NCBI GenBank assembly: GCA_019309115.1
Contig: JAFDGW010000003.1
Span: forward strand, 1-64,000
Source: Deltaproteobacteria bacterium
GTDB lineage: Bacteria > Desulfobacterota > Syntrophobacteria > Syntrophobacterales > Thermodesulforhabdaceae
Reading direction: 5' to 3'
DNA: 64,000 nt
A program made the position numbers and the translations under genes. This document shows positions 3,575 through 50,092 of the stretch, piece by piece. How positions within the stretch are numbered: the stretch's first letter is position 1; each line of letters begins with the position of its first letter. Under the pieces are notes generated by a model. The model was not told where the DNA came from. It did not search any database and worked only from the letters and a program-made list of their open reading frames with translations.

Positions 3575-6034
3575 TTAGCAGCTGCATCCACCAGGAACCT
3601 CATTTTCTTCGTTTTCTTTTTTGCTTTCCTCCTCTTTGCCATATTTCCTAACTATTTCCGAAATTTCTCTAAGCCTGTCATCAACCTTTCTGAAAAAGGT
3701 ACCTTCCGGGTAAGTCCCATCTTCTTGAAGCTCCCCTGCCGGCATTCCTGTCAGTATTTCTATGCCTTCCTCAATCCTCGAAATGGGCCATATATGGAAC
3801 AACCCCTTTTCCACCGCTTCGATGACTTCTTTTTTCAGCATCAGGTTATTTATGTTTTTCTTTGGTATTATTACACCCTGTTTGCCTGTAAGTCCTTTGT
3901 GCTTGCATATATCAAAGAAGGCTTCAATCTTACGGGTGACCCCACCAACAGGCTGAATTTCCCCTTTTTGGCTAACCGATCCCGTAACGGCTATTCCTTG
4001 GTTCAACGGCACACCGGCTATTGCGCTCAGCAGTGCAAACAGTTCCGTACTAGATGCACTATCACCTTCGACAAGCCCGTAGCTCTGTTCAAAACAGAGT
4101 GTTGCTGTCAAGGAAATGGGTTTATTATGAGCAAATCGTTCCTTAAGAAAACTGGTGAGGATCATTATCCCTTTGGTATGAATTCTTCCACTGAGTTTGG
4201 ATTCTCTTTCAATAGCTATCACGCCTTCTCTGCCCACCGACACTGTTGCGGTTATTCGATTAGGCTTGCCGAACTCATGATCTCCCGTCATTAAAATAGA
4301 AAGCCCGTTTATTTGACCGATCTTCCAGCCGTCGATTTCAACCCAGAAAATGTCTTTTTCTACGAGTTCTTTAATTTTCTCTTCAATCAAGTTCGACCGA
4401 TAAATGCGCTTTTTGATTGCCTTTTCTATGTGTTCTTCTCTGATTATTTCCGACTGATCCAGAGATGCAAAGTAATCAGCTTCACGAATGAGGTCGCCTA
4501 TGTCTCCAAGTTCGAGAGACAACTTTTCACGGTCTTCCGTGCGTTCCATGCTGTATTCCAACAGCCTGGCAAAACCGGTCCTGTCCATGTGTTTGCATCC
4601 GTTTGTGCGACAGAACTGAGCCACCATCTGGGCACATTTCATCACGTTTTCGTCACTTCGGTTCATGCGATCGTCAAGATGGGCTTTAACCTTAAAGAGC
4701 TTTTGAAACTTGTCGTCATAAATGTACAAAAGTTCATACAGGAACGGATCTCCCGTGAGCACAATCTTTACATTAAAAGGAATTGGTTCGGGGCGGATGG
4801 TCCTGGTGCTGAACAATCCGTAGAGTTCACCTAGGTCTTCGATCTTTATTTCCTTGTCCCGTAAAGCCCGTTTCAAAGCTTCCCAGGATATGTACCATTT
4901 CAACAGGTCCAGAGCCTTCATCACCAGATAGCCGCCGTTGGCTCTGTGCAGAGCGCCGGGCTTTATCATTGTAAAGTCCGTAAAAAGTGCGCCAAACCAG
5001 GCCTGACGTTCAATGGTTCCAAAAAGATTAGGATAGGCGGGGTTGGATTCGACGACTACCGGAGCTCCTTCTGTTTCGGAATTGTCTATAAATACGTTCA
5101 CATCATATCGCTTCATTGCTCCGTTTTTCTGGGGTGCAGGGAATGGAGCGTGTGGTTGCTGCGACTCATCGGCCTTCTTTTTAAATTCGTCAATATTTTC
5201 CAGGATATCTTCCTGCACCGCTTTCAGGTATTCAATCACATCCTGTTCATCTCGATACTTTTCTAGATAAGTTTCCAAGATCTGACCAACCACGAAAAGC
5301 GCAATTTCACTATCAAGTTTATTCCTTTTTTCGCGAAATTGGTTCTCCAGGTCACGAATTTTCTTGATCGCTTCTTTCATTTTTTCCTGAAGTTCATCGC
5401 TCTTTTCCCGAAGCCTCTGCTTTTCTTCGTCGCTTAACTGAGCCAGATCTTCTTGGCTCATGGGCTGACCATCAGGCCCCGCCGGTATTATGACCATCCC
5501 TACCTGGGAAAACTGAAGAATGAACCCTTCTTGCTGTGCCAGTTCAGAGAGCTCGTCGATAATTCCCCGCCGCTTTGCTTCAAATGCTTGTTGAAGTTCC
5601 TTCTCCTTCGCTCGGTAATCGTCACTATCGAACACTTCCGGAATCTTCTGCTGCAACGTTTGGATAAACTCGTGCATGTCTTTTTTAAGTTCTTTACCCT
5701 TACCGGGGCTTAACTTGATAGCTTTTGGCTTATCCGGTTCCTTAAAATTATAGACATAGCACCAGTCAGGCGGTGTAGGTTCCTTTTTAGCCTGTTCTTC
5801 CAGCAATGTTTTAGCGATGTAAGTAAGTCCGGTTTTTGGAGGCCCGGCCACAAAGATATTGTACCCATCCGCTTTCATACCCATGCCGAATTTTATTGCG
5901 TCTACTCCACGTTCCTGCCCGAGGACCGGAATTGATTCATCGTTGAGTTCGGCGGTAGTGTCGAAGGGCAAGTTTTCAGGATCTATTCTGGCACGAAGCT
6001 CCTCAGGTGACAATTGAGGGTGGTGTTCAATCAT
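3575..6034 (-). CDS. Lon-like AAA+ protease (LonB/AAA_32 family)
   Basis: ATP-dependent protease-like protein of 819 aa. The N-terminal AAA region has a P-loop-like segment GPPKTGLT (64-71) in which Leu replaces the usual Lys, followed by a long coiled-coil (about 130-290, Glu/Lys/Gln rich), then a Walker-B-like region around NGGYLVMKALDLL. The C-terminal Lon S16 domain has the catalytic dyad: Ser659 in GDSAS and Lys702 in GGVTRKIEA. The tail is charged and ends in a Cys-rich GGCSC. It has no Lon substrate-binding N domain, so it is not canonical Lon. Start ATG 6034 has AGGAGGAA upstream. Cytoplasmic; the substrates are unknown. It follows the khpA gene by 18 bases in the operon. Confidence 0.87.
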   Translation of the reverse strand: MIEHHPQLSPEELRARIDPENLPFDTTAELNDESIPVLGQERGVDAIKFGMGMKADGYNIFVAGPPKTGLTYIAKTLLEEQAKKEPTPPDWCYVYNFKEPDKPKAIKLSPGKGKELKKDMHEFIQTLQQKIPEVFDSDDYRAKEKELQQAFEAKRRGIIDELSELAQQEGFILQFSQVGMVIIPAGPDGQPMSQEDLAQLSDEEKQRLREKSDELQEKMKEAIKKIRDLENQFREKRNKLDSEIALFVVGQILETYLEKYRDEQDVIEYLKAVQEDILENIDEFKKKADESQQPHAPFPAPQKNGAMKRYDVNVFIDNSETEGAPVVVESNPAYPNLFGTIERQAWFGALFTDFTMIKPGALHRANGGYLVMKALDLLKWYISWEALKRALRDKEIKIEDLGELYGLFSTRTIRPEPIPFNVKIVLTGDPFLYELLYIYDDKFQKLFKVKAHLDDRMNRSDENVMKCAQMVAQFCRTNGCKHMDRTGFARLLEYSMERTEDREKLSLELGDIGDLIREADYFASLDQSEIIREEHIEKAIKKRIYRSNLIEEKIKELVEKDIFWVEIDGWKIGQINGLSILMTGDHEFGKPNRITATVSVGREGVIAIERESKLSGRIHTKGIMILTSFLKERFAHNKPISLTATLCFEQSYGLVEGDSASSTELFALLSAIAGVPLNQGIAVTGSVSQKGEIQPVGGVTRKIEAFFDICKHKGLTGKQGVIIPKKNINNLMLKKEVIEAVEKGLFHIWPISRIEEGIEILTGMPAGELQEDGTYPEGTFFRKVDDRLREISEIVRKYGKEEESKKENEENEVPGGCSC

Positions 6035-31501: not shown

Positions 31502-31589
31502 GCAAAGAAAATTCGGGACAGGGCGTTAGGTAGGGGGTTTTGTCAACAGTTGCTTGATTTTTTGATTTTATTTGCTTGTTCATATGCAC

Positions 31590-31664
31590 ATGAGCAGATT
31601 ATACCGCATAGGAGATGCGGCACGGATATTAGGTGTATCTGTGGTGTATCTGTCCAGAGTTTGA
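31590..31664 (+). pseudogene. IS607-type tnpA 5' remnant (MerR-like HTH)
   Basis: Reading from ATG 31590 gives 24 codons to TGA 31662-31664, including LYRIGDAARILGVSV. This is the start of a MerR-like helix-turn-helix as found at the N-terminus of IS607 TnpA serine recombinases. The catalytic domain is missing. In copy 2 the corresponding DNA is shorter and the ATG is lost. A small MerR regulator fragment is the alternative. Confidence 0.6.
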
Positions 31665-31677
31665 GGAGATAAGATTT

Positions 31678-31797
31678 GTGAGCTGTGGAAAACCGGAAGG
31701 GCAGAGCTCTGACGGTGTCAGGCAACATGAGCTGTTACGTCTGACTCCACAGCTCATTGAAGTGGATGCTCATCTGAGCAAAAATAGGAAGCTGTGA
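31678..31797 (+). pseudogene. Conserved 39-codon frame, possible tnpB 3' end (copy 1)
   Basis: An open frame from GTG 31678 to TGA 31795-31797 encodes a Cys-Gly-containing basic peptide (VSCGKPEGQ... LTPQLIEVD... NRKL). Copy 2 has the same frame and stop (49597-49716) with a few amino acid changes. In IS607 and IS605 elements tnpB lies downstream of tnpA and its 3' end overlaps the guide RNA, so this could be the tnpB tail. It could also be an unrelated small ORF: GAGGAG at 31663-31668 is a possible ribosome site. Confidence 0.4.
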
Positions 31798-31815
31798 GTG
31801 GGAAAAAGGTAACGG
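31680..31815 (+). ncRNA. Structured RNA segment of the repeat element (copy 1), possible omega RNA
   Basis: Can fold into: P1 GAGCTGTGGA (31680-31689) with TCCACAGCTC (31746-31755); inside it a hairpin AGGGC/GCTCT (31698-31702 with 31706-31710) and a hairpin GTCAGGC/GTCTGAC (31717-31723 with 31739-31745) carrying AACA/TGTT (31724-31727 with 31733-31736). Downstream is TGCTC/GAGCA (31767-31771 with 31776-31780) and a conserved tail to ACGG. Most differences from copy 2 in these stems keep pairing. A TnpB-type guide RNA at the element right end would carry its guide in the flank from 31816. Confidence 0.5.
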
Positions 31816-31861
31816 TTGTCAACGTGGCGCTCTGTCCCGGAGAGTTGAGAGAACAGCGCTA

Positions 31862-49369: not shown

Positions 49370-49596
49370 GCTGCAATGGAGCGTCTTGGTAATGCTAGCT
49401 GTTACTTGGCTTTGTAATTTTCCAAGTGTATGCTGACCAACGGGGATAGATTTATGGGACTGGAAGTTTTCTGGCTGAGGGCTGTAGGAAATTCAAGGGC
49501 GAGCAGGCGAAAGGGTTATTAACAGTTACTTGATTTTTTGATTTTATTTGCTTATTTGTATGCATGCACACAAACGAGTTATAGTGTTATAGATTT

Positions 49597-49716
49597 ATGA
49601 GCTGTGGGCAACTAAAGGGGCTTGTCTCCGATGGTGTCAGGCAACGTAAGCCGTTACGTCTGACTCCACAGCTCATTGAAGTGGATGTTCATCTGAGCAG
49701 AAATAGGAAGCTGTGA
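49597..49716 (+). pseudogene. Conserved 39-codon frame, possible tnpB 3' end (copy 2)
   Basis: The frame ATG 49597 to TGA 49714-49716 encodes a 39-residue basic peptide (MSCGQLKGL ... NRKL) related to the copy 1 frame. The two share the same frame and stop; substitutions such as Ala to Val and Lys to Arg are conservative. A remnant of tnpB or a small independent ORF cannot be told apart from this window. No ribosome site is visible. Confidence 0.35.
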
Positions 49717-49734
49717 GTAGGAAAAAGGTGACGG
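49599..49734 (+). ncRNA. Structured RNA segment of the repeat element (copy 2)
   Basis: Same fold as at 31680-31815. Against copy 1, A-U in the inner hairpin becomes G-C (49646 with 49652), A-U becomes G-C in another stem (49617 with 49629), C-G becomes U-G in the 3' hairpin (49688 with 49697), and the P1 extension pair A-U becomes G-U (49608). One pair is lost: C-G becomes C-U (49621 with 49625). If it acts as a TnpB-type guide RNA, the guide would begin at 49735, just upstream of yhbY. Confidence 0.48.
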
Positions 49735-49753
49735 TAAAGCGTCTAGTTTGGGC

Positions 49754-50092
49754 ATGTGTCATGAGGAACTCAAGAGTGTGGATTGGAAGCCCAACCCACT
49801 GGGGCGCCTTAAAGGCAAGATCAAAGCAGAGTTGAAGCGCAAGGCTCATCATTTGAGGCCCGTCGTTCAGATAGGGCATAGCGGAGTAACTGATGATGTT
49901 ATCGCTGAAATTCGTCGGCAACTCCTGATTCACGAGCTGATAAAGGTTAAATGGGCATCACTCACCAAGGAAGACGGCAACAAAAAGGAACAGGCTCGTG
50001 ATCTTGCAGAAAGAGTGGGAGCTCATTTTATATCTCTGATTGGCCAGGTAGTTGTGCTTTATCGCCGACGGGAAGATAAGATTATATCATAG
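49754..50092 (+). CDS. yhbY: CRM-domain RNA-binding protein (YhbY)
   Basis: 112 aa. The CRM domain spans from LKGKIKAELKRKAHHLRPVVQIGHSGVTDDVI to VGQVVVLYRR-type strands; the GxxG-like loop GHSG is visible. Members associate with the large ribosomal subunit precursor. The start is unsure (ATG 49754 or the TTG at 49748, or ATG 49763); ribosome-site matches are poor, and the repeat element ends 19 bases upstream of ATG 49754. Confidence 0.87.
   Translation: MCHEELKSVDWKPNPLGRLKGKIKAELKRKAHHLRPVVQIGHSGVTDDVIAEIRRQLLIHELIKVKWASLTKEDGNKKEQARDLAERVGAHFISLIGQVVVLYRRREDKIIS

Follow-up and report, generated by a model that had tools for sequence, protein, structure and literature searches.

Layout and copies of the repeat

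The window, by which we mean the whole 64,000-nucleotide stretch of contig JAFDGW010000003.1 that was analysed, contains two copies of a short repeat, each consisting of a left and a right segment (31540-31588 and 31672-31816; 49516-49564 and 49591-49735), with an identity of 86-88%. About 16 occurrences are found in the 2.5-Mb assembly when both window copies are counted; both ends are kept in about 11 of them, and the others are incomplete, either through truncation or because a contig stops within them. The occurrences fall into at least two structural types. In the main type (~220 bp), to which window copy 2 belongs, a left end of ~75 nt is fused straight onto a right end of 145 nt, and in the longer type (~280 bp), represented by window copy 1 and by C1:29441-29708, the start of tnpA is retained and reads MSRLYRIGDAARILGVS. 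Another copy, L008 on C64, seems to have arisen by a third deletion. The features of the two window copies are as follows.

31536-31815, + strand: copy 1 (~280 bp), probable MITE with left end, ~17 first tnpA codons, reRNA scaffold and right end; layout as C1:29441-29708
31540-31588, + strand: left-end segment (TTGTCAACAGTTGCTTGATT...), common to nearly all copies and the full-length IS607 element
31591-31656, + strand: remnant of the tnpA 5' end (MSRLYRIGDAARILGVS, MerR-type HTH of the IS607 transposase), abutting the right-end segment; from direct reading
31680-31688, + strand: P1, 5' strand (partner 31747-31755)
31692-31716, + strand: hairpin H1 (31692-31695 with 31713-31716; 31698-31701 with 31707-31710)
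31717-31745, + strand: hairpin H2 (31717-31723 with 31739-31745; apical loop 31724-31738)
31732-31738, + strand: pseudoknot 5' strand in the H2 loop, CUGUUAC (partner 31809-31815)
31747-31755, + strand: P1, 3' strand (partner 31680-31688)
31809-31815, + strand: pseudoknot 3' strand, GUAACGG; these 7 nt close the element and contain the GG exchange dinucleotide
31816-31835, + strand: putative guide of copy 1, host flank TTGTCAACGTGGCGCTCTGT, by analogy with PMC10711439
49515-49734, + strand: copy 2 (~220 bp), probable MITE of the main type, left end directly onto the reRNA scaffold
49599-49674, + strand: reRNA core of copy 2 (P1, H1, H2), 105.7 bits
49651-49657 and 49728-49734, + strand: pseudoknot strands of copy 2
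49735-49754, + strand: putative guide of copy 2, TAAAGCGTCTAGTTTGGGCA

When the repeat was searched by blastn across the order and the class, it was found in its own genome only; plasmids and phages gave no match, and neither did viral contigs scanned with the DNA pattern of the repeat.

RNA fold of the right end

From the two window copies, the earlier note had proposed that the right end folds as an RNA, and RNAfold returned the same fold for both (copy 1, -51.8 kcal/mol, z -3.87; copy 2, -44.5 kcal/mol, z -1.98). We compared this fold with two larger alignments, one of 15 right ends (A1) and the other of 15 rows in which the MITE copies are combined with the right ends of a longer element on contig C65 and of another genome, G286, both described below (A3). 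The two stems said to be unchanged hold well: among the 15 right ends, P1 is paired in 99% of cells and the 7-bp inner stem, which is that of H2, in 100%. The compensatory changes claimed in the earlier note had a mixed outcome. The proposed pair 31698/31710 holds, occurring as G-C, G-U and A-U with no break across 15 rows, but the other proposed pair, 31727/31733, fails, since it pairs in 6 of the 15 rows of A1 and 8 of the 15 of A3. The pair 31702/31706, described in the earlier note as lost in copy 2, forms in just 3 of the 15 copies.

The poor pairing of 31727/31733 arises because those bases are taken by a 7-bp pseudoknot that was missed previously, in which the loop of H2 pairs with the final seven nucleotides before the host flank. 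The first fold instead showed a mini-helix in the loop (31724-31727/31733-31736), because a nested folding model cannot show a pseudoknot at that place; this mini-helix was no better than shuffles (238/500), and the pseudoknot is preferred. When P1, H1, H2 and the pseudoknot are taken together, 98.5% of cells are paired in the 15 rows of A3, and the cells changed on both sides number 12 against 4.2 in shuffles, a number that none of 500 shuffles reached. If the partners are shifted by 1-3 columns, pairing in the same alignment falls to 36-43%.

P1 shows a compensatory change from U-A to C-G in the full-length elements, and the pseudoknot contains one compensatory pair (also U-A to C-G); apart from one break, its other changes, seen in L008 and the two window copies, are all of the wobble type. 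The pair 31695/31713 of H1 also covaries, being G-C in copy 1, A-U in copy 2 and C-G in the full-length elements, and it is unpaired in 5 copies. Among the broken pairs are one in P1 of L002 and one in the pseudoknot of L013. All this covariation lies on few independent branches (the MITEs, C65 and G286), so that the changes count as few events. Seven Watson-Crick pairs to the loop are offered by 0.3% of the 12-mers of the window, or by 2.2% if G-U is allowed. Among the MITEs, 14 of 62 paired columns vary against 34 of 82 unpaired ones (p 0.02), which is modest evidence of constraint. We conclude that the fold is genuine and that it is one of an RNA.

The match between the loop and the terminus might alternatively represent binding motifs of TnpA in the DNA rather than pairing in an RNA. 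The ends of IS607 elements carry short repeated TnpA motifs (PMC6188088), and here the left end too has GTTAC in AGTTACTTG, or GTCGC in C65. However, the distance from loop to terminus is not constant, being ~70 nt in the MITEs and ~135 nt in C65; P1, H1 and H2 are left unexplained; and related reRNAs have a functional pseudoknot at this very position. We therefore consider such DNA motifs an improbable explanation of the match and continue with RNA pairing.

Comparison with published omega RNAs, which the earlier note had called for, agrees with an RNA of this kind, as the pseudoknot adjoins the guide in the same way as in the IS607 and IS605 reRNAs (PMC10711439, PMC11061315, PMC10097598). 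It is required in the ISXfa1 reRNA, where a double mutant rescued function (PMC10711439), and is present in the ISFba1 reRNA (PMC11061315) and the ISDra2 omega RNA (PMC10097598). The repeat shares with ISXfa1 and ISFba1 the right-end position, the overlap with the tnpB 3' end, an IS607 transposase and the GG-type insertion (PMC10711439, PMC11061315, PMC6188088), and its hairpins are likewise joined by a pseudoknot from an apical loop to the last nucleotides before the guide. It differs from them in that the MITE scaffold is carried on elements without tnpA or tnpB, in having no RAGATH-18 match, and in that the C-terminus of the cognate TnpB scores best with Cas12f2 (95 bits). The ISDra2 omega RNA of the IS200/IS605 family also has the pseudoknot beside the guide and the tnpB 3' overlap (PMC10097598), but here we find an IS607 serine transposase and GG ends instead of a Y1 transposase, and the sequence differs. 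Rfam, the other comparison suggested, gave nothing: no family, HEARO and RAGATH-18 included, matched at the gathering threshold or at E up to 5. HEARO, the omega RNA of IscB, is also a transposon-associated guide RNA, but it lies upstream of iscB.

Some derivatives of IS605 elements, palindrome-associated or MITE, keep the omega RNA and are gene-less copies with the ends and the guide-RNA region. The present repeat is similar to these in retaining the same parts without genes, but it belongs to the IS607 family and has no palindromic IS605 ends.

Descent from an IS607 transposon

A longer IS607 element with the ends of the MITEs lies on contig C65 (L034:2290-4401). Its tnpA is intact (204 aa; NF033518, IS607 transposase, 186 bits), so that a transposase able to act in trans is present in the genome, and the tnpA remnant of copy 1, MSRLYRIGDAARILGVS, matches MSRLYRIGNAARILGVS in this protein. 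The C-terminal part of its tnpB has a TNB domain (PF07282, 67.8 bits) and scores highest with Cas12f2 (95 bits), followed by guided_TnpB (84 bits). The 5' part contains a TAG at L034:3266-3268 and a frame shift near 3690-3736, and the RuvC-I motif (G-[IVLF]-[DN]-x-G), sought in all frames of this tnpB, is absent; because of these three features, the gene looks like a pseudogene. Its C-terminal frame reads across the entire scaffold. This supports the suggestion in the earlier note of a TnpB guide (omega) RNA, which in IS605/IS607 elements is located at the right end and overlaps the tnpB 3' end; here the element is of IS607 type. The stretch from P1 to the right end is ~63 nt shorter in the MITEs than in the full-length elements, and thus the MITE scaffold is without one hairpin.

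A covariance model of the repeat, R1, was run on other genomes and recovered, at 95.9 bits, two right ends from G286, which belongs to a different family of the same phylum. Both have the scaffold and the terminus of the C65 element behind a tnpB 3' end, and a different contig of G286 holds a left end that matches. No additional genome was found by the covariance model over the class of G286, and searches with the TnpB and TnpA proteins gave distant relatives only (~30-50% identity). The archaeal relatives that were examined have right ends that differ and are IS605-like.

The RNA architecture of the repeat and its descent from a tnpB 3' end plus right end are thus shown. Multiple short gene-less copies share both ends with a full-length IS607 element, and we consider it very probable that 31536-31815 and 49515-49734 are MITE-like (non-autonomous) deletion derivatives of an IS607-family transposon with a TnpB guide-RNA scaffold.

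IS607 exchanges strands at GG and prefers (G)GG (PMC6188088). Copy 1 has GG at each terminus, and all complete right ends of the repeat finish in GG. A G-run of at least three lies at the left end in 15 of 15 cases, all of them occupied sites; in L014 and L001, one or two T separate the run from the aligned left end. The MITEs would be, or have been, moved in trans by an IS607 serine transposase TnpA inserting at GG, and the intact TnpA of this genome could move them.

Two further contigs (L066, C70:1-114; L067, C37:1-114) each start with the terminal 114 nt of the C65 element, beyond which their flanks differ, so that this right end either occupies two places in the genome or varies within the sample. 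A second IS607 type, with a TnpA ~41% identical and a similar left end, GACAACAGTTGCTAAAT, was seen at L040 (end of C38) and L041 (start of C10), where it is cut by contig ends after tnpA.

Flanks, possible transcription and possible present use of the scaffold

IS607 TnpB reRNAs are already known and are transcripts of ~150 nt that reach into the flank. In a limited literature search we found no report of IS607 MITEs with an reRNA. A transcript of the MITE would fold so that P1 closes two hairpins, the second of which pairs through its loop with the terminal seven bases of the element. This pseudoknot would position the adjoining host sequence as a guide, and hence the host flank of each copy would act as its guide once the RNA were loaded into a TnpB. 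In this strain such loading is doubtful, since the one cognate tnpB of the assembly is disrupted. By analogy with ISXfa1, the first nucleotide of 31816-31835 may still belong to the scaffold. The first base past the terminal GG (31816 and the homologous positions) is T in 12 and C in 2 of the copies counted, and base 31816 could lengthen the pseudoknot by one pair with G31731.

A scan for sigma-70-type promoters in both window copies found none, and a terminator scan gave nothing. In 13 of 13 testable copies, the nearest recognisable gene 5' of the left end lies on the same strand and reads towards the element; by inspection of the translations, these genes include HU, a sigma factor, the DnaJ region, MetK, an RnfA-like gene, L25, a CbiA-like gene and L17. 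None of the 13 testable loci (e.g. L001, L004, L006, L010 and L011) falls within a divergent promoter region. Of the copies whose downstream gene is co-directional too, 8 of 8 are in sense (one-sided sign test, p 0.004). These counts come from simple ORF calls judged by eye rather than curated annotation. The sense orientation behind a gene makes read-through transcription plausible, and read-through from the upstream gene would be the simplest source of the RNA. Promoter avoidance or target preference could give part of the orientation bias.

Two explanations of the present function can be considered. First, and compatibly with its identity as an IS607 reRNA scaffold, the scaffold may be a relic, passively carried next to the right end that TnpA requires and used by no TnpB now. 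The one cognate tnpB that was assembled is interrupted by a stop and a frameshift, and none of its frames encodes a RuvC-I motif; the promoter scan was empty; and the copies are 86-100% alike, so that recent amplification alone would preserve the fold. On the other hand, at least two different internal deletions (the main one, the 280-bp one and perhaps that of L008) all spare the scaffold core, and the paired columns vary less than the unpaired ones. Moreover, this assembly of 72 contigs has IS copies, full-length ones among them, at contig ends; the right end of C65 has two flanks (C70, C37), and an intact copy of tnpB could therefore be missing. On balance we lean slightly towards the relic.

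Second, each MITE RNA may be an active guide used by a TnpB encoded elsewhere, which would cleave alleles lacking the MITE and in this way maintain or restore it. The presence of the pseudoknot in the scaffold is in favor of this, as is the orientation described above (13/13 sense behind a gene, 8/8 with a co-directional downstream gene), which read-through predicts. The left flank has GGG and the right terminus CGG, a difference that would let a nuclease tell the empty from the occupied site and fits a G-rich motif sparing the latter; the TAMs of IS607 TnpBs are AGGAG or GAGGG (PMC11061315). But the GGG may be merely the (G)GG target preference of the transposase (PMC6188088), and the assembly is without an intact cognate tnpB. 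The other TnpB genes whose ends we examined in the genome belong to the IS605 type, and their right ends differ from that of the repeat, which makes them unlikely partners. Active guiding in trans is in our view a doubtful reading. The broader proposal, that the ~11 complete tnpB-less MITEs are dispersed orphan guide-RNA genes, lying in sense behind host genes, made by read-through and serving a TnpB in trans that keeps the MITE, seems to us rather unlikely.

The repeat adds a new reRNA lineage with a TnpB C-terminus close to Cas12f. It is an IS607-type reRNA scaffold, including the pseudoknot, that spreads without nuclease or transposase genes of its own, and it offers a testable case of whether guide RNAs of non-autonomous elements parasitise TnpB in trans.

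Two additional observations were made. An apparently intact IS605-type TnpB of 469 aa is encoded at L046 (C21:45500-49500); it contains AIDYG, a RuvC-I-like motif, and its right end is different. The flanks of copy 1 are complementary to each other (31514-31527, CGGGACAGGGCGTT, with 31826-31839, GGCGCTCTGTCCCG), so that a strong hairpin downstream of the HU gene holds the element in its loop; this hairpin may be the HU terminator.
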